Of a stretch of 57,165 nucleotides of DNA, positions 41,124 through 52,171 are shown in pieces (the stretch's first letter is position 1; the number at the start of each line of letters is the position of its first letter). Source of the DNA: Spirochaetaceae bacterium (lineage in GTDB: Bacteria; Spirochaetota; Spirochaetia; DSM-27196; PWMO01); the NCBI GenBank assembly GCA_007693485.1, contig REDM01000211.1:1-57165 (forward strand), in the 5' to 3' direction. Below the pieces are notes generated by a model that ran no database searches, had not been told where the DNA came from, and saw only the letters and a program-made list of their open reading frames with translations. The position numbers were made by a program, and so were the translations under genes.

Positions 41124-41519
41124 ATGAGCAGTCAATATCATGAACCGCCCGAGGAACTCAGCGCCAAGACCCGCGACTGCACGCGGATTCTGGTCAGTCT
41201 CAAGGAAGAGATCGAGGCCGTCGACTGGTACAACCAGCGCATGGACCTCGCAACCGACGATCAGGTGCGCAAGATTCTTGAGCACAACCGCAATGAGGAG
41301 ATGGAGCACGCCTGCATGGCTTTGGAGTGGCTCCGACGCAATATGCCCAACTGGGACGCAATGCTTCGAACCTACCTGTTCACCGATGGGGACATCCTTT
41401 CCATTGAGGAAGACTCGGAGGGGCATGGCGGAGAGGGCCACGGCGGCCACGCATCCGGCACAGGTGGTTCCGCACGGGGCCTGGGAATCGGGCGGCTCGC
41501 CGGCAAGGGAGGGAAGTAA
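41124..41519 (+). CDS. Encapsulated ferritin-like protein (EncFtn) with C-terminal encapsulin targeting peptide
   Basis: LKEEIEAVDWYNQRMDL and NEEMEHACMALEWLRRNMPNWD; His/Gly linker; terminal GLGIGRLAGKGGK; AAGGAG SD. Confidence 0.92.
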   Translation: MSSQYHEPPEELSAKTRDCTRILVSLKEEIEAVDWYNQRMDLATDDQVRKILEHNRNEEMEHACMALEWLRRNMPNWDAMLRTYLFTDGDILSIEEDSEGHGGEGHGGHASGTGGSARGLGIGRLAGKGGK

Positions 41520-41521
41520 CC

Positions 41522-42316
41522 GTGGATATGCTTCGCAAACAGCTTGCGCCCATTTGTGATGCCGCGTGGCGGGAGATCGAAGAGCAGGCGGTGCGTTTTC
41601 TCACAAGCACCCTCGCGGTACGTCGTTTTGCCGACGTGGTAGGGCCACTGGGCGTTGAGTACGCCGCGGTACCGACGGGGCGGTTGTCCCTTCCCCCCGA
41701 CCAGGCATCCGGTGGCGCCAAGTACGGGGTCAGCCGGGTTCAGCCCCTGGTGGAAGCGCGCGTGTCATTTGAACTCAACATCTGGGAACTCGACAACGTT
41801 GCCCGCGGTGCCGACGACGTGGACCTCTCCGCGCTGGAGAAGGCGGCGTGGGAACTGGCCCGCTTTGAAGAGGAGAGCATCTACGCCGGGCTTGCGCCCG
41901 CCGGAATCGAGCCCCTGTCCGCACTCTGCGCACACGCTCCGCAGCCCTACGGCGGCAAGGCCGAACAGCTCTTCCCGGCGGTAGTTTCCGGACTGACCAC
42001 CCTGCGCAAAGCGATGATCGAGGGACCCTACGCGCTCGTTGTTCCGGAGCAGCCGTGGAACTATCTCATGAGCACCGTTCAGGGAAGGCCGCTGTCACAG
42101 CACGTCGAGACGGTGCTCGGCGGCCCGGTGATCTTCAGCCCCTTCGTGCCCTCGCCGCTGCTGGTTTCGCTTCGCGGTGGAGATATGCAGCTGATCATCG
42201 GTCGCGATATCGACATCGGATACACATCGCACACGGCTGAGACCGTACACCTCTACTTCACCGAGACCTTCACCTTTCGGGTACTCGACCCGTCGGTCTA
42301 CCTGTTTCTCACGTAG
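41522..42316 (+). CDS. Encapsulin shell protein (family 1, linocin M18-like)
   Basis: AWREIEEQAVRFLTSTLAVRRFADVVGPLG; HK97-fold encapsulin features; GTG start with SD. Confidence 0.93.
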   Translation: MDMLRKQLAPICDAAWREIEEQAVRFLTSTLAVRRFADVVGPLGVEYAAVPTGRLSLPPDQASGGAKYGVSRVQPLVEARVSFELNIWELDNVARGADDVDLSALEKAAWELARFEEESIYAGLAPAGIEPLSALCAHAPQPYGGKAEQLFPAVVSGLTTLRKAMIEGPYALVVPEQPWNYLMSTVQGRPLSQHVETVLGGPVIFSPFVPSPLLVSLRGGDMQLIIGRDIDIGYTSHTAETVHLYFTETFTFRVLDPSVYLFLT

Positions 42317-42330
42317 CGAGGATGAGAGCG

Positions 42331-43260
42331 ATGAACATGCGGATTGCGGTGACGACAGTGCTGGTTGCGCTCTGGGTGGTATCTGCTGCGTCTGCGAACA
42401 GCGCCCCGCTCACGGCGCTTCGGGCTGGTTCCGACGGTGAGCGGGTAACCATCACCTGGTCGGCGACCACGGACACCGATACGGCGGCGGCGGACTTCAT
42501 CGTCTTTCGGTCTCGGTCACCCATCACCTCAACCGAAACGCTCGCCGGCGCCACGCAGCTCGCGGTGGTCTCCGGGGCTGCGGGCCGGTTTCTCGATTAC
42601 CCGGTTCCGGGTGTCCCGGCCTATTACGCATTGATCGATATCGACCAGATTGCCGCCGGGGTCATCACCTTCGAACCGGGTCGATCGGTAACCACCGAGG
42701 CCGTCTCCCTTCCCCTCGGAGCCCGAACCCGTGACCCGCAGTTCTTCACGGCGTTTGCCTTTCGCGATCGCCCCCTGCCCCTGCTGCAACCGTGGAGAGA
42801 CATGCTCGAGGGAACCGGAGAGGCGCTCCCACGAGCCCTCCCGCCAACTCCGCACCGCGCACTGAATCCGGCGGCCACGGCGGCCCTCGCCGGATTGATG
42901 GAGCTGCGGCCACCCGAGGGCGCCACCCCGAAGCGTCCGGTGGTGCTCGATGCCGAGCAAACCGCCGTGGACAAGGGCGTGGCATTTACCCTGAAAAGCA
43001 TCGTCGATGGGCCGTTTACCCAGGGTGCGTGGGCCGAGTCGCGCGAACAGCTGGGAAACCTCCTGACCCTCCCCCTTCCCGCAGAAATCGAGTCCCGGGC
43101 ACGGTTCTACCTCGGGCAGACCCTTTTCTACGAGGGGCGGTACGAGCGGGCGGTGCTGGAGTTTGTTCTGGCGCGCCGCCACCACGTGGCAGAAGCCACC
43201 CCGTGGATTCGGGCGTCACTGCAGCGAATGGGGCCTACAACCGCGCGAGTGCAAGGGTGA
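42331..43260 (+). CDS. Exported hypothetical protein
   Basis: Signal peptide MNMRIAVTTVLVALWVVSAASANS; starts about 15 nt after encapsulin stop. Confidence 0.68.
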   Translation: MNMRIAVTTVLVALWVVSAASANSAPLTALRAGSDGERVTITWSATTDTDTAAADFIVFRSRSPITSTETLAGATQLAVVSGAAGRFLDYPVPGVPAYYALIDIDQIAAGVITFEPGRSVTTEAVSLPLGARTRDPQFFTAFAFRDRPLPLLQPWRDMLEGTGEALPRALPPTPHRALNPAATAALAGLMELRPPEGATPKRPVVLDAEQTAVDKGVAFTLKSIVDGPFTQGAWAESREQLGNLLTLPLPAEIESRARFYLGQTLFYEGRYERAVLEFVLARRHHVAEATPWIRASLQRMGPTTARVQG

Positions 43261-45199
43261 TGTCGACCGACCAGCTCCCGCCGACCGGAATCTCGAGGTC
43301 CCAGCCGGGAAAGAGGCGGGTACCCTGATAGAGGGCAGCTGCGGTAGAAACCCCACCATTCGCCTTCGTTCCGTCGCCGGTTTCCGGTGTGAAAAGGAGC
43401 GGGGATACTCGGACATCTGCCGGATGCGTGGTTCGCATCAGCAGGGCGATATCGTTGAACAGATCGTTGAATTCAATCTCTCCGCTGCGAATCGTCTCCC
43501 CGGAACGCACCGCGCCAAATGGTCGCTTTGACGCCTCGTCGCCACGGACCCGCAGGTGAGTCTCGTGGTCTGAGAGGAAGCCCAGATTGACCTCGGTACC
43601 AAACCATCCCGTGAACGGCTCTGATCCGTGGTTGGTGATACCGTACCGGACGGTGAGGCCGGAGGCGCGAAACCGGAACTGTTTCTCAAGCCGCATTCCC
43701 GTATCCGCAACGTCGAGCGACAGGTCGATCAGGTCGTGGTCGCGGTCGAGGTGCTCGGTTCGGTAGAGCTGGGTAGCAATGGGAGCCACCTCCCGAGCTG
43801 CGAGGTCAGCTTCGCTCCAGTCCATGGGCGCTTCACGCAGCAGATGGTCCACGAAGGCGCGACCGGCTGCCACCTCGTAGGAGCGGACCGACCGGTCACT
43901 CGCGCGCGAGCAGTCGAGGGTGTCGAGGTAGTTCCACGGCACCGGCAGGAAGTCGAGCTCGAAGAGCACCCCACCCTGGCTGTGCACGTAGGCGTTGATC
44001 TCGTGGCCCTGATAGAGGTACTCGGGCAGGCCGTCCATATCGAAGTCAAGACTGAGCACCGAAGGAATAAAGATTCCCTTTTCGCGGGTGACCTTCTCTG
44101 CTTCGATAAGGGACGAGTAGACCCGCTTTCGCAGCAGATTCTCGTAGATTCCCCCATTGCGACCGTTCCAGTACGCGGTGTGGCACTGCCCCTTCCACAG
44201 TTCCTCGCGGGCGAGCTGCTTGCGATACTTGTCTCCGCGCAACTGATTCACCAGGATGTGGGTGTACTGCATCTTCGCGTACATCAGGTTGCTTTCCGGC
44301 GAGGTCGCAAGGAACTGCCGAAAGTAGCCTCCCCCGTTCCCGTTGGTGAAGGCGGAATCCGCAAGGTGGGGCGCAACGACCTCCCGGTACGAAGTCGGCG
44401 GGAAGTAGGCGCGCCGACGCGGAGTCACTACACGAAGATAGCGCCACGGGTGGGAGACCTCGATCCAGTCGCGGTTTTCGACCAGCAGGTCCAGAAAGGT
44501 GCGAATCCAATCGAGCGCCGCCGATGGTTCGTCGAAGCGCTCGGCGTACCGCTCACCATCAACAATGATCGAAAGCAGCTGCTGCTCATCGTCTCCCGCG
44601 TGCCCCCGCAGGGCCTCGACGACTTCGTGCGGAGAGGCAACCCCGATCATGTCGCAGAGTTCGGTGGCAACTGGAAACACCACGACGGTCTTTCCCTCAT
44701 CCTCGGTGATGCAGGGGGCCGTCAGACCGTCGCCATCGTGGCCTCCGGCGGCAAACTGCCGGTCACAGAGAAAGGTGTAGTCGATCCCGCTGGTTCGAAG
44801 GAGTGAGGGAAGCGAGGGTTCCCAGATCTGGCCGGTGATCCAGGCACCGCGTGGTCGACGGCCGAATCGTTTGCGAAGGTGGGTGGTCATCCGCTCGATC
44901 TGTCCGAGGCGATCCGGTCGGGGAATCAGGGCGAGTACGGGATCGTAAAACGCGCCGCCGAGCAGTTCCACCTGTTTCCTCCCCCCCATTTCGGAGAGGA
45001 CGTCGGTGAACTCTGAATGGTGCTTGTCGAGCCACTGCAGAAGGTGTCCACTGTAGTGAAGGGTGATCGGGATTTCTGGTCGGTTGTAGGATGCCCTGAG
45101 GAAGGGTTTGTACGCCCGCTGGTAGGTCTCTTCGATCCGGCCCTCGTCGATGCCGACGGGTTGAGAGTTCGTGGTGCCGAATACCAGTCTTACTTTCAT
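43235..45199 (-). CDS. GH57-like protein (alpha-amylase/4-alpha-glucanotransferase related)
   Basis: LHYSGHLLQWL, VELLGGAFYDPVLALIPRPDRLGQI, WITGQIWEPSLPSLL; C-terminal DUF1926-like region. Confidence 0.82.
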   Translation of the reverse strand: MKVRLVFGTTNSQPVGIDEGRIEETYQRAYKPFLRASYNRPEIPITLHYSGHLLQWLDKHHSEFTDVLSEMGGRKQVELLGGAFYDPVLALIPRPDRLGQIERMTTHLRKRFGRRPRGAWITGQIWEPSLPSLLRTSGIDYTFLCDRQFAAGGHDGDGLTAPCITEDEGKTVVVFPVATELCDMIGVASPHEVVEALRGHAGDDEQQLLSIIVDGERYAERFDEPSAALDWIRTFLDLLVENRDWIEVSHPWRYLRVVTPRRRAYFPPTSYREVVAPHLADSAFTNGNGGGYFRQFLATSPESNLMYAKMQYTHILVNQLRGDKYRKQLAREELWKGQCHTAYWNGRNGGIYENLLRKRVYSSLIEAEKVTREKGIFIPSVLSLDFDMDGLPEYLYQGHEINAYVHSQGGVLFELDFLPVPWNYLDTLDCSRASDRSVRSYEVAAGRAFVDHLLREAPMDWSEADLAAREVAPIATQLYRTEHLDRDHDLIDLSLDVADTGMRLEKQFRFRASGLTVRYGITNHGSEPFTGWFGTEVNLGFLSDHETHLRVRGDEASKRPFGAVRSGETIRSGEIEFNDLFNDIALLMRTTHPADVRVSPLLFTPETGDGTKANGGVSTAAALYQGTRLFPGWDLEIPVGGSWSVDITLALARL

Positions 45200-45300: not shown

Positions 45301-45888
45301 CTACCGGATGGCTGCAAGCAGCGCCGGATCGAAGACGAGAAACGCCATGGCGATCAGGCCGGCGCAGATGAGGGCGATGGGAACTCCCCGCATCGGCTCG
45401 GGGATCCACTCAAGCTCCAGTGTCCGCAACACGGCCCCCAGCAGCGCCGCCGCCAGCATCAATCCAAGGCCGCCGAAGAACCCGGCAACCAGGCTCTCGA
45501 AGGCGGTGTAATCGCTGCGTACCGCGATGAGCACCACGCCCAGGACCGCGCTGTTGGCGGCAATGGCCGAGATGTCGCCCGCTATTTCGCGATGCCACTG
45601 TACCGAGATTGCCCGGGTAATGCGATGAGTGAGGCTGACCATCCCCACAATGATGAGCACAAAGAGCAGCGGTTGCAGAACATCGAGTCCAAGCCAGTCG
45701 AGGAAGAGTCGGTTTCCTACCCAGCCCGCGACCGCCGCCACGGCGAGAAAGCTCGACAGACCAACACCGTACCTGATCAGCCGGCGGCGGTCGGAAGCAC
45801 GATCAAAACAGAGGTCAAGCCCCAGAAACCAGCTGAATGCAAGGTTGGATACCAGAAGCATGCTCACGGCAAGAGATACGCTGTTCAC
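45301..45888 (-). CDS. rnfA: RnfA/NqrE-like membrane subunit
   Basis: SNLAFSWFLGLDLCF, AIAANSAVLGVVLIA; GTG start overlaps upstream stop. Confidence 0.83.
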   Translation of the reverse strand: MNSVSLAVSMLLVSNLAFSWFLGLDLCFDRASDRRRLIRYGVGLSSFLAVAAVAGWVGNRLFLDWLGLDVLQPLLFVLIIVGMVSLTHRITRAISVQWHREIAGDISAIAANSAVLGVVLIAVRSDYTAFESLVAGFFGGLGLMLAAALLGAVLRTLELEWIPEPMRGVPIALICAGLIAMAFLVFDPALLAAIR

Positions 45889-46550
45889 TGCGGCGCCTCC
45901 TGTGTGGTGTCGGTCGATACGGGCGTGTGCGACGGCCGCGATGCGCGGGCATTGCGAAGCGCCAACAGATACCCCAACACCAGAAAGCCACCGGGGGCGA
46001 GAGCCACCATCCGCAGGGGGTGCTCCGAAAGCACCGGCACAACCAGCACCCCGCCAAACCCTCCGAAGGGAAACAGCGTGAGGGTACCAACGCCAACCAG
46101 TTCCCGTACCACGGTGACACCGATGAGCCAGGCCACGAAGTGAAGCCCCGTTCGCAGGGTGTCCGTCGGGGTCGGTTTCCGGCGGGAGGCGACTCGACGC
46201 CGGGACAGAATGAGGCAGCTGACGATCATCATTGGATGCACGATACCAAGCGTGGCGGCAATCTGCGGCAGATAGGCGCGGGTCAGCATATCGAGCAGCG
46301 TCACCAGGACGGTGGCAACCGTCAGGTACACCATGGTGGAGAGGTGATCGGGAATCCAACGGTCCGCTGCGTCGATGATCAGGCGGCAACCCACCAGCGT
46401 AATCGTAACGGTGAGAGAGAGCACCACGGCATTCGCAACCAGCGGCGAGACCGCAAGCGCGGGTGCCAGGGCCAGCACCAGAGCCACGGTCGGCACCGAT
46501 TCGCTCACCCGCTCGGCCACGGCCTTGATCTCGCGGCCTTCGCGGCTCAT
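45885..46550 (-). CDS. rnfE: RnfE/NqrD-like membrane subunit
   Basis: VALVLALAPALAVSPLVANAVVLSLT, LGIVHPMMIVSCLIL; position in the rnf cluster. Confidence 0.8.
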   Translation of the reverse strand: MSREGREIKAVAERVSESVPTVALVLALAPALAVSPLVANAVVLSLTVTITLVGCRLIIDAADRWIPDHLSTMVYLTVATVLVTLLDMLTRAYLPQIAATLGIVHPMMIVSCLILSRRRVASRRKPTPTDTLRTGLHFVAWLIGVTVVRELVGVGTLTLFPFGGFGGVLVVPVLSEHPLRMVALAPGGFLVLGYLLALRNARASRPSHTPVSTDTTQEAPQ

Positions 46551-47692
46551 CGAAACGCCCCCAACGACCATCCGTAGCGCCGCGGACGAAACAGCTGGTT
46601 GATGGCGGGGGTCAGGACGTTCATGACCAGAAGCGCACCGGCAACGCCTTCGGCGCCTCCGGAGTAGCGGCGAAAGAGTACGGTAAGCGCACCGGCCCCC
46701 AGCCCAAAGACAATCTGTCCAATCGCGGTCCGAGGTGCGCAGGACGTGTCGGTTGCGATGAAAAACATCGCAAACACGACGCTGCCGGTCAGCAGGTGAA
46801 ACAGCACGTCGCCGGAGAAGAACCCGCCTCCGTAGGGAAGACCGCCAAACACCCAGGTGAGCGACGCGAACGAGAGGAAGAATGCGGTTGGAATTTCCCA
46901 CGTGATGATGCGCCGGCCAAAGAGAACAACCGAGCCGGCGAGCAGGAGTGCAATCGACGTCTCTCCGATGGCGCCTGGATGGTTCCCGAGAAACAGATCT
47001 ACGTATCCTGCCGGGAGCGCCGCACCAAACCGGCCCACGAGCACCTCATTGAACCACCCGGTTACCGTCGTGTCCAGCACGGTGCGCGGCACACCGATTC
47101 TCCCGAGATAACCGCTCAGACCGCCAATCACTACTTCACCGCGTTCCGCGGCTGCTCGGAGTAATCCGAGTGCCGTGGCCGAGGTCAGACCGTCGGGAGG
47201 AAGGGTTGCCGGAACCGTCCAGCGAGTCATTGCATCCGGCCATGAATAGGTCACAAACACCCACGCAGTGAGGGCGGGATGAAGCCAGATCCCGCTGATT
47301 CCGCCGAAGGTCCACTTGGCCACGCCAATCGCAACCAGGGTAGCGACAATCACGATCCCAAGGGGCACCGCCGGCGGCATCATCATGCCGATAACCAGAC
47401 CAACGAACGCGGCGTGCCATCCGGGCGCCGAACCCACCTCTACCCGATGAAAGCGGGCACGAAACAGTCGCACGATGATCGATTCGGCCACCAGACTCGA
47501 CACGACCGCCGTTGCGAGGACCAGTGCCGCGCGTAATCCAAAGAGCATCGTACCCCACGCGGCGGCGGGAAGCAGGCAGAAGAACGCAGTCGCAAGAAGC
47601 TCGCTGGACGAGGTTCGTTCGTGAAACTGCGGAGGCGCGTGGCGCGTCGGCACCACCACACCCGGCTCGAGACGCGGGGTTGAATCGCTCAC
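46547..47692 (-). CDS. rnfD: RnfD-like subunit
   Basis: Multi-TM; DGLTSATALGLLRAA flavinylation-type motif; GTG start overlaps rnfC stop. Confidence 0.87.
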   Translation of the reverse strand: MSDSTPRLEPGVVVPTRHAPPQFHERTSSSELLATAFFCLLPAAAWGTMLFGLRAALVLATAVVSSLVAESIIVRLFRARFHRVEVGSAPGWHAAFVGLVIGMMMPPAVPLGIVIVATLVAIGVAKWTFGGISGIWLHPALTAWVFVTYSWPDAMTRWTVPATLPPDGLTSATALGLLRAAAERGEVVIGGLSGYLGRIGVPRTVLDTTVTGWFNEVLVGRFGAALPAGYVDLFLGNHPGAIGETSIALLLAGSVVLFGRRIITWEIPTAFFLSFASLTWVFGGLPYGGGFFSGDVLFHLLTGSVVFAMFFIATDTSCAPRTAIGQIVFGLGAGALTVLFRRYSGGAEGVAGALLVMNVLTPAINQLFRPRRYGWSLGAFR

Positions 47693-49014
47693 ACCCCGCC
47701 TCCACCATTCTGCCGCCGGCCCTGCACCAGGGTCTCGGTCAACGGTATATGGGAGGGGCAGACGTAGCTGCAACAGCCGCACTCCCGACAATCGGCAAGC
47801 CCGGCCGCCGCCGCGTCGTTCGGCCGTTCGCGCTCGAGCATCTTGACCAGCGTCACCGGTTCCAGTCCCACCGGGCAGACCCGGATACAGCGCCCACACC
47901 CGATGCAGGGCGTTCGCTCCCCTTCGTTGACCTCGTCGGCCGAGAGCGCCAACACCCCAGTGGTCGTCTTGGTGATCGGAGTTGCCATGTCTGTGACGGT
48001 GTAGCCCATCATCGGACCACCGAGAACCAGACGCGCCGGTGTCTCGATCAGTCCGCCACACTCGGCCAGTAGAGCGCCCACGGGGGTGCCGATGCGTACC
48101 TTGACGTTGGATGGCGTGCCGATCGCCGAGCCGGCAACCGTAACAACGCGCTCGACCAGTGGTTTGCCGAGGGCGATCGCTTCGTACACCGCGTTGATGG
48201 TCGGAACGCTGGAGACAACGATCCGAAGGTCGATCGGCTGCCTGCCGGCGGGAACCTCTCGACCGATAACCTCACGAATCAGCAGTTTCTCGTCACCGGT
48301 GGGATAGGAAAGCGAGACGGCCCGCACGGCGAACGGGAGGCCTCGTTCGCGCACCAGTCGACGCAGCGCGGTCACCGCATCGCGCTTGTCTCCGCCCACC
48401 GCGATGGTCACCTTCCGGGCACCCGCGATGTGAGCGGCGATCCGCGCGCCCTCGAGAATATCGGAGGGCTTTTCCAGCATGAGGCGGTGGGTCGCGGTGA
48501 GGTAGGGCTCACTTTCCGCCCCGTTCACGATGAGGTGCTCGATTTCAACGCCTCGCGGAATTGTAAACTTACTGTCCGCCGGAGTTCCCCCACCTCCCAT
48601 TCCCACGACGCCGCACTCGCGAAGATTTCGCCGTAGATCGCGCGCGCCGCGATGGTGCCACTCCGCCGGGACCAGTGGTTTGCCGAGCCGCTCGAACTCC
48701 CCTTCGAGGTCGATCACGACACAGTTACTCGGCCGACCGGGATACACGTCTCGCAAACAGATCGTCGTTACCACGCCGGGAATCGGGGCGTGCACGTGGG
48801 CACTGTTTCGCCCCACCGCCCGCCCGATGAGCATTCCTTCGCGAACGCGGTCTCCTACTGAGACTACAGCTTCGGCAGCCGCCCCGGCGTGCTGGTGCAA
48901 GGGCACCACACACTGGGTCGGCAACGCGGCATTCCAGATGGCGCGACCGCGGGTGAGAGATTTGCGGTCATCGGGGAGCACCCCCCCGCGGGTGAGCGTT
49001 GGAAGCGGAATCAT
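47689..49014 (-). CDS. rnfC: RnfC-like subunit
   Basis: GVVGMGGGGTPADSKF; two 4Fe-4S motifs CIGCGRCIRVCP and CRECGCCSYVCP. Confidence 0.92.
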   Translation of the reverse strand: MIPLPTLTRGGVLPDDRKSLTRGRAIWNAALPTQCVVPLHQHAGAAAEAVVSVGDRVREGMLIGRAVGRNSAHVHAPIPGVVTTICLRDVYPGRPSNCVVIDLEGEFERLGKPLVPAEWHHRGARDLRRNLRECGVVGMGGGGTPADSKFTIPRGVEIEHLIVNGAESEPYLTATHRLMLEKPSDILEGARIAAHIAGARKVTIAVGGDKRDAVTALRRLVRERGLPFAVRAVSLSYPTGDEKLLIREVIGREVPAGRQPIDLRIVVSSVPTINAVYEAIALGKPLVERVVTVAGSAIGTPSNVKVRIGTPVGALLAECGGLIETPARLVLGGPMMGYTVTDMATPITKTTTGVLALSADEVNEGERTPCIGCGRCIRVCPVGLEPVTLVKMLERERPNDAAAAGLADCRECGCCSYVCPSHIPLTETLVQGRRQNGGGGV

Positions 49015-50564
49015 GCGTGTTGTCGATTGCTCCTCTGCACCAGGGCGTGTGTCCGAAACAAGTGCGCGCCACCCCACATCAGCGCGTAGGGCAGCACGAG
49101 CATCATCAGGAGCGCTGCGTGACGCACCAGAGACACCGGAGAAGAGTATACCGCACCCACCGAACGCATCTCAACCCGAACGGGAGTATTCTGAGCGATC
49201 AGAATCGCCTCGACCGCGTGAGAGGGGCGCTCGGCAAACACGCGCGCAAGCCACGCGTCGTCATACACCGCGACCGTCTCCACGGTCTGTTCCACCGCCA
49301 CTTCATTCTGTATGAAGCGTGGCAGCGAGAACTCCTCGTCCTGCGCGGGCAGATCGAAGGGCCGTCGATACATGAAGCCCTCCTGAAACGCACGATGGGC
49401 AACGAAGGCGGCAAGATCGGGCGGCGCTCCGTCTGTATCGAGGCGGTCTTCACCGCGGGGGGGCCAGATATGCGAGAGGGACGAAAGCGTGAGCTCCACT
49501 GAGGGACGCGCTGCCGGAGCCGGTTGGGGAAGCACAATCTCCGATGGCGCCGGAAGCCACCGCTGCGCAACGGGCACCGCGAGCGCGACAGCAATCGCCA
49601 GGGGAACAATGACCGGCAGTACCACCGCCGGCTTTGAAGAGGTGATCGCGACCGGGACGAAAAGCCGGTGCTCGCACCGGCGATAGCGGTACACCCGCAG
49701 CGACGTCACCAGTACCGTTGTGCCCACCAACCCCGCGAGGCCCAGAAGCAGTGACGCCACTTCGTCAGCTTCGGCTGGTTGCACAACAGAGACCGCCACG
49801 GCCATCCCCAGGACCGGAAGCAGCGCCCGCAATGAAGCCTGCACCACCACCGACCGGCTCGTCCCGCCGGATACCGAACGGGCGCGGAGGCTGAGCAGAC
49901 TGCCCCCACAGCCGAGACTCCACGCCACAAGAAGCGCGCCTGCCGCGGCGAAGGCGCTCAGCGAACCCACCGCGTTCAGGGGAAGCAGCACCGCGGCAGC
50001 GGGAATGACCGCCCAGCGAAAACCCCGCGCATGCACGAATACCAGCAGTACCAGAACGCCGAATCCCAGAGGAAACACCAGGTTTCGGCCGTGGTTCCAC
50101 TCCGGCAGGCGCCACGCGGCGCCGAGTCCCTCCATGGCGGTGGTCACCCGGCGGTAGAGCCGGATCGAGCGGTCCTCGGCGGCAAGGTAGTAGATGGCGG
50201 CCGGCTCATCGTTCATCGTCGTGCGAAACCATCGCGGCAGGCCCCGGATGTAGGGATCGACTCGCGGATCAACCGGGTCGAAGCGCAACGGAACCGCGGC
50301 AAGCGGATACTCGACCAGACGGCCAAATCCGTTGATCGACACGGTGGTCGTACACTCCGCGATCACCGGATCGATTCCCGCATCGACGAGCCGATTCACC
50401 ACCAGCTCGCAGGGAACCGACGCATCCACCACGAGGGCGCGGTGCCCCAGCCAGGATGACCGGCTATCGGCGGTGCGGCGACCGGTCCCCGGACTCTGCC
50501 ACGATCCAAAGAAAACGATGAGCAGGGTGATTCCAATGATGAGAAGGCCGCGCCACGGTTTCAT
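49011..50564 (-). CDS. Multi-pass membrane protein of unknown function, operonic with rnfC
   Basis: N-terminal TM, periplasmic-like domain, TM block, C-terminal soluble domain; 4-nt overlap with rnfC. Confidence 0.75.
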   Translation of the reverse strand: MKPWRGLLIIGITLLIVFFGSWQSPGTGRRTADSRSSWLGHRALVVDASVPCELVVNRLVDAGIDPVIAECTTTVSINGFGRLVEYPLAAVPLRFDPVDPRVDPYIRGLPRWFRTTMNDEPAAIYYLAAEDRSIRLYRRVTTAMEGLGAAWRLPEWNHGRNLVFPLGFGVLVLLVFVHARGFRWAVIPAAAVLLPLNAVGSLSAFAAAGALLVAWSLGCGGSLLSLRARSVSGGTSRSVVVQASLRALLPVLGMAVAVSVVQPAEADEVASLLLGLAGLVGTTVLVTSLRVYRYRRCEHRLFVPVAITSSKPAVVLPVIVPLAIAVALAVPVAQRWLPAPSEIVLPQPAPAARPSVELTLSSLSHIWPPRGEDRLDTDGAPPDLAAFVAHRAFQEGFMYRRPFDLPAQDEEFSLPRFIQNEVAVEQTVETVAVYDDAWLARVFAERPSHAVEAILIAQNTPVRVEMRSVGAVYSSPVSLVRHAALLMMLVLPYALMWGGAHLFRTHALVQRSNRQHA

Positions 50565-50573
50565 GAGTCACCG

Positions 50574-51053
50574 CTACAGAATACTGAAGGCTACCGCGAT
50601 GAAGAACCCGAGCAGCACTCCCACGGAAACCTCGCTGGGAGTGTGTCCATTTACCTCTTTGACGAGGGTGAACTCGATGTCATGCCGGCGTTGAAGCTCA
50701 ACGCCGAGCCGGTTCAATGCCTGTGCCTGCAGACCAGCCGCTCGACGAACACCCAGCGCATCGCGAATGATAAGTATTCCGTAGAACAGTGCGAGCGAGA
50801 AGAGGGGATCCGTCAGGCCGTAGCGAAACCCGATCGCGGTGGCAAGCGCCGTAACCAGCGACGAGTGACTCGACGGCATGCCACCGGTCTTCCACAGCAG
50901 TGTCTCGGCGATATCCCGGGTGCCACGACTTCGGTTGCGCACCACATCGATCACCGACTTGAGGAGTTGGGCGATAAACCAGCTGAAAAACGCAGAAAGG
51001 AATACCGGACTCGAGAGAAACCGGTAGAACTCCGCGGCCGTCCGAGGCTCCAT
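50574..51053 (-). CDS. Divergent PAP2-family (DUF212-like) membrane protein
   Basis: WKTGGMPSSHSSLVTALATAIG, IIRDALGVRRAAGLQAQALN, NGHTPSEVSVGVLLG. Confidence 0.87.
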   Translation of the reverse strand: MEPRTAAEFYRFLSSPVFLSAFFSWFIAQLLKSVIDVVRNRSRGTRDIAETLLWKTGGMPSSHSSLVTALATAIGFRYGLTDPLFSLALFYGILIIRDALGVRRAAGLQAQALNRLGVELQRRHDIEFTLVKEVNGHTPSEVSVGVLLGFFIAVAFSIL

Positions 51054-51103
51054 GATGGCATCGATTGTAAATGCCTCACCACCTTTGTCAAGCGGATCGA
51101 AAC

Positions 51104-52171
51104 ATGTCAGAATACCCCATGCATCCACAGCAGCAACGCGAACCACATCAACTGACCGCCGGCCGAGATGACGCGGGCCGCCGCCTCGACCGCATCGTGC
51201 GCCGCGCCTTTCCCTCGCTGAGTCTCTCGCTTCTCCATCGGTTGATGCGCACGGGCGCGATCCGGCTGAACGGGACCCGCTGCACCGCCGCGTCCCGCGT
51301 TGCCGAGGGTGACGTGATTTCGGTTCACCTGCCCGCTGATGACGCCGCGGCAAACCGCAACGCAACGGCGGTTACCGCTTCCGCTCACGGTAGTGCCGTT
51401 GTGCCGGACGGGAGCGAGGACACGAAGAGCGACCCCCTGATTGCAGGGCGGATCCTGCTGGAGAACGAACACATCCTTGCGGTTCATAAGCGGCGAGGAA
51501 CGCTGGTTCACGGCGAGGGCTCCCTCGCGGAATCGGTGACACGCTATCTGAGCGGATCGCTTCCGCCTTCGCTCTCGTTCCGCCCCGGCCCCCTGCACCG
51601 ACTCGACCGCAACAGCTCCGGGGTCATTCTCTTTGGAAAAAGCATCGAGGGAGCGCGTCGATTCTCGCAGCTGCTGCGCGAGCGCTCGGTGATCAAGCGA
51701 TATGTGGCAGTGCTCTCCGGCGCGCTGCGCGGCGATGCGAGCTGGGATCAGGCGATTGAGCGCGACCACCGCGCGATGCGCTCCACCGCCGGTGAGCGCG
51801 GCGACGACGCGCTGACCAGGGTTCGCTCGCTCGCGCACGGAAAGGATCATCGCGGAGCGCCGCTCACCCTCGCCCTCTGCGAAATCCATTCCGGACGCAC
51901 GCACCAGATCCGCGCCCACGCCGCCGAGGCGGGCACCCCCCTTGCCGGTGACGCGAAGTACGGCGGCGGCTCGATTCTCGGCGGCTACGTCCTGCACGCC
52001 CTGTCGATCGAGCTTCTCGAACCCGATCCAATTCTCGGCTTTCACGTCCTGGTCGATCCCGTGGAACAGGCAACGCAGGAGCGCATCGAGCGCTGGTTCG
52101 GTCCGGATGGGCAACGCGCAGTGCGGGCCGTTGCCCAAATCGACGGGAAGCGACTACACTTACGCCCATGA
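51104..52171 (+). CDS. RluA-family pseudouridine synthase
   Basis: S4-like N terminus; HRLDRNSSGVILFGK catalytic motif; SGRTHQIRAH. Confidence 0.92.
   Translation: MSEYPMHPQQQREPHQLTAGRDDAGRRLDRIVRRAFPSLSLSLLHRLMRTGAIRLNGTRCTAASRVAEGDVISVHLPADDAAANRNATAVTASAHGSAVVPDGSEDTKSDPLIAGRILLENEHILAVHKRRGTLVHGEGSLAESVTRYLSGSLPPSLSFRPGPLHRLDRNSSGVILFGKSIEGARRFSQLLRERSVIKRYVAVLSGALRGDASWDQAIERDHRAMRSTAGERGDDALTRVRSLAHGKDHRGAPLTLALCEIHSGRTHQIRAHAAEAGTPLAGDAKYGGGSILGGYVLHALSIELLEPDPILGFHVLVDPVEQATQERIERWFGPDGQRAVRAVAQIDGKRLHLRP

Follow-up and report, generated by a model that had tools for sequence, protein, structure and literature searches.

Probable loss of the membrane [2Fe-2S] cluster from an RNF-type complex of Spirochaetia

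Introduction

The four cysteines that hold the intramembrane [2Fe-2S] cluster have been called strictly conserved in RNF and NQR (PMC9588780). In Acetobacterium woodii (A. woodii), mutation of the cluster cysteines removes 2 Fe, all Fd:NAD+ activity and autotrophic growth. The A. woodii mutants R67A, E115K and T110G do not grow either, while E115A grows like the wild type and T111G has no phenotype (PMC11889175, whose residue numbering is used here for the ligands). Na+-NQR is proposed to have originated by rnf duplication and loss of rnfB (PMC4014512). For the NQR/RNF-like extracytosolic flavin systems, a one-way half circuit from NAD(P)H via an RnfD-type protein to the outside has been proposed (Meheust et al. 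2021, PMC8238504; PMC10979944), and a 'noncanonical RNF' of T. pallidum has been published as an energy-conserving redox pump (Deka et al., PMC7512555).

Here we analyse an RNF-type operon in a contig of 57,165 nucleotides (REDM01000211.1, the window) from a soda-lake Spirochaetaceae bacterium, in which a sequence-only reading had noticed substituted cluster cysteines.

Results

The window operon

The operon is arranged H-RnfC-RnfD-RnfE-RnfA on the minus strand, between a GH57 and a DUF212/PAP2-like gene:

43235..45199, minus strand: GH57 glycosidase gene (PF03065), syntenic downstream neighbour
45301..45888, minus strand: RnfA-like subunit, 195 aa, GTG start, intact; PF02508 E=7.9e-20, 9eri_A E=1.7e-22; both cluster Cys substituted
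45550..45552, minus strand: RnfA Ser113 codon AGC, where ligand Cys113 sits (alignment to structures)
45808..45810, minus strand: RnfA Cys27 codon, the 'shifted' Cys, +2 residues from the ligand position (alignment)
45814..45816, minus strand: RnfA Asp25 codon GAC, where ligand Cys25 sits (alignment to structures)
45885..46550, minus strand: RnfE-like subunit, 221 aa, intact; PF02508 E=2.6e-26, 7zc6_E E=1.3e-26, 9eri_E E=1.3e-21; first cluster Cys substituted, second kept
46215..46217, minus strand: RnfE Cys112 codon TGC, equivalent to A. woodii Cys108, the single retained ligand (alignment)
46464..46466, minus strand: RnfE Ala29 codon GCA, equivalent to ligand Cys25 in A. woodii numbering (alignment)
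46547..47680, minus strand: RnfD-like subunit, overlapping RnfE; PF03116 E=2.2e-77, matches to 8ahx_D and 9eri_D
47159..47194, minus strand: RnfD flavinylation motif DGLTSATALGLL, kept (motif reading, alignment to structures)
47689..49002, minus strand: RnfC; TIGR01945 433 bits, over the cut-off; both [4Fe-4S] motifs complete
49011..50564, minus strand: protein H, a multi-pass membrane protein that marks the spirochaetal RNF locus; no family at threshold, found upstream of rnfC in relatives
50574..51215, minus strand: DUF212/PAP2-like gene (PF02681 E=6.5e-40), syntenic upstream neighbour

The overlap of RnfD with RnfE shows that the locus has no rnfG, and with GH57 next after RnfA there is no rnfB either. 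With both gone, the entire ferredoxin arm is missing from the operon; RnfG and RnfB are encoded in the second RNF operon of the genome, on C283. The complex is not a Na+-NQR (NqrF, NqrA without Fe-S): no NqrF was found among the operon ORFs, and an RnfC with Fe-S motifs is present. Nor does the locus encode an RnfD-NqrF fusion with an FMN-bind protein, as the RnfD region matches PF03116 only and no FMN-bind gene lies between RnfD and RnfE. The neighbours recur in relatives, with DUF212-like ORFs seen by eye upstream of H in loci L162, L165, L166 and L170, and GH57 adjoining L066, L067, L070, L073, L075 and L077. Elsewhere in the window (41125-42316, plus strand), a short ferritin-like protein, recognised by eye, precedes an encapsulin shell protein of family 1 (246.7 bits in NCBIfam), a probable iron-storage nanocompartment.

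A single cluster ligand is left in RnfA/RnfE

PF02508 and PDB sequence and fold matches place the two subunits as an RnfA/RnfE pair of the Rnf-Nqr fold; the TIGR01943 rnfA match of RnfA stayed under the curated cut-off in the NCBIfam profile search. The AF2 model of RnfA matches RnfA/NqrE structures, and that of RnfE matches 9eri_E and folds like RnfE/NqrD. These are single-chain models (pLDDT 81 and 76, 20-row alignments), in which ligands across the RnfA/E interface cannot be placed.

Both proteins aligned over their full length by phmmer with the solved complexes 9eri, 7zc6, 8ahx and 7xk3. Only one of the four [2Fe-2S] ligand cysteines is left and three are substituted. The sequence-only reading had placed a Cys to Ala change and a retained second Cys in RnfE, which fall on A29 (Cys25 position) and C112, and a Cys to Ser change in RnfA, which falls on S113 (Cys113 position). 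The RnfA cysteine that it described as moved by two residues is indeed Cys27, two past ligand position 25. Its count of at least two substituted ligands out of four was an understatement, because residue 25 of RnfA is Asp. Chance and a sequencing or frame error were ruled out by the canonical pairs of relatives, which have all four cysteines, and by the independently assembled sister genome G013, whose proteins are 76-89% identical and share the substitutions. Misalignment was likewise ruled out, because MAFFT and the comparison with four solved homologues pair up the same residues. The idea that Cys27 replaces a ligand was rejected, as this residue is conserved in no genome but the sister.

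Residues of the Na+ pathway, read off the phmmer alignments, are also changed: K32S, T110A and T111A in RnfA, R67 to S71 and E115 to R119 in RnfE. In relatives, the ligand positions are occupied by Gly, Ala, Ser, Thr, Phe, Trp, Pro or Glu, with no conserved substitute ligand.

Judged from these alignments, the membrane [2Fe-2S] cluster of the window complex is very probably absent. It had been proposed that the cluster was either absent or differently coordinated. This holds, with absence by far the likelier of the two in view of the lone ligand cysteine, the relatives without a conserved replacement and the A. woodii cysteine mutants. Chemically, Asp, Ser and a neighbouring Cys could act as ligands, and RnfB and RnfG are available in trans on C283; one could therefore imagine a [2Fe-2S] or mononuclear site with altered ligands (Asp25, Ser113, Cys27, Cys112), and a loop kept by borrowing RnfB and RnfG from the second RNF. 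However, Ala29 gives no ligand, the same positions carry Gly, Ala, Phe, Trp or Pro in relatives, and neither R67/E115, the cytosolic Na+-gate pair of RnfE, nor T110/T111 of RnfA has survived, which makes such a site very unlikely.

RnfC, RnfD and protein H

The window RnfC has two [4Fe-4S] motifs with all eight cysteines, the NGAESEPY sequence and a mostly kept NAD(H)/FMN domain. Its FMN loop is altered, reading GMGGGGTPADSK versus GMGGATFPTHVK in the C283 copy. RnfD (TIGR01946 190 bits, against a cut-off of 207) retains Asp249 as well as its flavinylation motif, DGLTSATAL, and carries His in place of the riboflavin ligand Asn123. ApbE is encoded elsewhere in the genome. The His at Asn123 and the altered FMN loop imply that any residual electron path may be impaired. 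Protein H has a weak RseC_MucC match (E=0.009). In other bacteria rseC is rnf-associated, and the match may be a lead towards the role of H.

The operon is an additional copy. The genome also encodes a complete RNF (C283, locus L079, C-D-G-E-A-B) and an NQR (C288, locus L080), both with four of four cysteines, as in every canonical RNF or NQR pair that was read from relatives. Compared with these two, the window copy lies further from the canonical complexes and from those with solved structures, as expected if it were functionless and degenerating towards loss. Such a fate is disfavoured, and we rate it very unlikely, in view of the five intact ORFs, of synteny preserved across families of the class and of selection: compared with the sister genome, dN/dS is 0.10 for RnfA, 0.28 for RnfE, 0.16 for RnfD, 0.12 for RnfC and 0.17 for H. 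All five genes are therefore maintained by purifying selection.

Erosion of the H-marked locus across Spirochaetia

The syntenic layout in Spirochaetia is DUF212-H-RnfC-RnfD-(RnfG)-RnfE-RnfA-(RnfB)-GH57. A profile search of 393 genomes sampled from the phylum detected H in 79, probably a lower bound. Each of 15 further genomes without an H match gave an RnfC-profile match; the three loci read among these (L191-L193) are the same locus, and H was recognisable in L192 and L193; L194 is a fourth. Named relatives include soda-lake Spirochaetales MAGs, Alkalispirochaeta alkalica and 'Thalassospirochaeta sargassi'.

Canonical copies with rnfG, rnfB and four cysteines are found at L075-078, L148, L149, L158, L161, L172, L173 and L175. 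L067-L069 have no rnfB, keep rnfG and carry Ser or Gly at RnfA Cys25; at the flavinylation motif of their RnfG, all three read SGAS for SGAT, that is Ser for the FMN-bearing Thr. Other loci without rnfB have lost two ligand cysteines (L070, L081-082), three (the window, L066, and L071, whose contig begins inside rnfD), three or four (L087 and the f2 family) or all of them (f9 and f14 loci). The losses did not occur in lockstep, since L072-074 and L083-084 have four of four cysteines despite having neither rnfG nor rnfB, whereas L174, L176 and L177 keep an rnfB with zero (L174 and L176) or three (L177) of the four cysteines. A strict order in which rnfB is lost and then the cysteines was thus ruled out. 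By contrast, all RnfC sequences that could be read in sampled H-loci outside the Borrelia type retain their [4Fe-4S] cysteines.

An RnfC+RnfD tree suggests at least four independent losses in the H-locus, a soft figure, since the tree was built quickly, has long branches and lacks both bootstrap values and the tips without scored states. We claim no counts for rnfG loss, since rnfG was miscoded in those treponeme and f9 loci that carry a diverged RnfG-like ORF between D and E. As read from gene content and alignments, one syntenic locus is eroding class-wide, with repeated loss of its cysteines.

Extreme forms in treponemes and Borrelia-type genomes

Treponeme loci have no rnfB and at most one ligand cysteine (L165 keeps RnfE Cys25 only), and in them the FMN loop of RnfC and the RnfD motif have decayed. 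L191, in a genome made of a single 1,139,633-base contig (G101) and grouped in the same family as the treponeme loci, reads C-D-(G-like)-E-A, with no canonical ligand cysteine by eye; a PF02508 search of this genome gave no match. From its size, G101 is presumably T. pallidum.

In L162-164 and L194, on chromosomes of about 0.9 Mb that presumably belong to Borreliaceae, H, an RnfC:RnfD fusion and RnfA are flanked by a DUF212-like gene and an apparent prfB. The ORFs are intact. The RnfC part ends before the Fe-S domain, with no [4Fe-4S] motif in the aligned region; no RnfD flavinylation motif and no ligand cysteine in RnfA were seen, and RnfE, RnfG and RnfB were not found at these loci.

The decay of the RnfC FMN loop and RnfD motif in treponemes and the Borrelia type indicates that persistence of the locus there does not require an NADH-RnfC-RnfD path. 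This raises an alternative for the window as well, namely that the RNF scaffold and H were recruited to a non-redox job, such as moving ions or serving the cell envelope, which would make the redox sites of the window relics in transition to the Borrelia-type form. Borrelia burgdorferi does not need iron (PMC3828560), and bb0071, probably H, is among the transposon mutants not recovered from larval ticks (PMC6516651); in the literature searched, bb0071-bb0073 appear as a table entry only. Together with the intact but redox-stripped Borrelia-type loci and the treponeme decay, these observations favour a non-redox job. Nevertheless, RnfC still has its [4Fe-4S] cysteines in all sampled loci but the Borrelia type, and in the window lineage RnfD retains its flavinylation motif; a non-redox scaffold would need neither. 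For the window we consider this account rather unlikely, though a serious competitor.

Co-occurrence with a second RNF

The H-locus is canonical, with rnfB and four cysteines, in genomes G010, G016, G017, G035, G298, G410 and G414. In six of them (all but G016), the sole other Rnf/Nqr pair read is NQR-type, without rnfC or rnfB and with NqrF in all but G410; G016 has one other pair, of unread type. Most genomes with an eroded H-locus have a separate four-cysteine RNF with rnfB (for example G000, G011, G014, G015, G036, G044, G051, G186, G371 and G383). In G064, the second operon is present and rnfB was not detected. No displacing RNF was found in the draft genomes G013 and G005 (the latter with an rnfB hit on another contig only), and no second RNF in G101 or in the Borrelia-type genomes searched. 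From this gene content, the H-locus would be canonical when it is the only RNF and usually rnfB-less in the presence of a second one. The association of erosion with a second RNF is strong; we put no probability on it because the genomes are related.

Other operons without cluster cysteines

Separate D-G-E-A-C operons (L089, L090, L092, L093, L096 and, partially read, L088) have none of the four cluster cysteines. Their RnfD and RnfG keep the flavinylation motifs, and RnfC, wherever its sequence is complete, has both the FMN loop and the Fe-S motifs. More RnfA/E operons without any of the four cysteines were seen at L091, L099, L101, L104, L107 and L109, and also at L095, L102, L106, L108 and L110, several in C-D-E-A order with canonical RnfC. 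L102 and L106 carry four flavinylation motifs in FMN-bind-like proteins beside RnfE and are candidates for NADH-to-outside electron export. Most of the separate operons of either arrangement, which come from the same order as the window organism, have a canonical RnfC FMN loop. They lend support, in principle, to a cluster-less half circuit.

Discussion

Taken together, the losses of ligands and genes, the sites retained, the synteny, the selection on the genes and the presence of a second RNF in the same genomes lead us to favour, with moderate confidence, an RNF that was displaced by a second RNF, lacks its cluster and is kept for a different role with a residual RnfC-RnfD path. The ancestral spirochaetal RNF operon would have given up its ferredoxin:NAD+ function once another complete RNF had assumed this task. 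The input arm is lost, that is RnfB, RnfG, three of the four [2Fe-2S] ligands and the Na+-gating residues of RnfA/E, which would leave no RNF electron loop and no redox-gated Na+ pumping. What is left over is RnfC with its sites for NAD(H)/FMN and for two [4Fe-4S] clusters, the RnfD flavinylation site, the RnfA/E membrane scaffold and protein H. The likeliest residual activity is a one-way passage of electrons from NADH through RnfC to the RnfD flavin at the outer face and on to some acceptor, perhaps via H.

One-way flow through RnfC and RnfD is probable in the window organism, a non-redox role being possible instead, and would have a precedent in the NQR/RNF-like systems. We hold about evenly balanced the order of events (second RNF first), the residual path and its acceptor. 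Only tentatively do we extend the scheme to the whole class, where the ancestral locus and H might have turned into a complex without the ferredoxin:NAD+ job and finally a non-redox one, Fe-S-only in treponemes and cofactor-free in the Borrelia type.

Repeated cysteine loss at one traceable locus, whose genes are under selection where tested, provides natural separation-of-function variants of an ion pump. Moreover, the duplication of rnf with loss of rnfB from which NQR is proposed to have arisen (PMC4014512) is seen here with a different outcome. If L191 is that of T. pallidum, the complex proposed to energise its membrane has no canonical ligand cysteine for the intramembrane cluster, and the published model is directly testable.

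The window operon resembles the RNF of A. woodii, A. vinelandii and C. tetanomorphum in its RnfC, D, E and A homologues and their gene order, the RnfC [4Fe-4S] motifs, the RnfD flavinylation motif and the RnfA/E fold. It differs from them by the absence of RnfB, RnfG and three of four cluster cysteines, by the changed Na+-gate residues and by the extra protein H. With Na+-NQR it shares the parental scaffold; however, NQR has four cysteines, NqrC and NqrF, and the window RnfC retains the Fe-S motifs lost by NqrA. The NQR/RNF-like flavin systems are built on an RnfD-NqrF fusion and an FMN-bind protein, with neither RnfA/E nor RnfC, whereas the window locus encodes RnfC, D, E and A but no FMN-bind protein. 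The noncanonical RNF of T. pallidum is probably the same locus (L191 of G101) and, unlike the window, has no canonical ligand cysteine.
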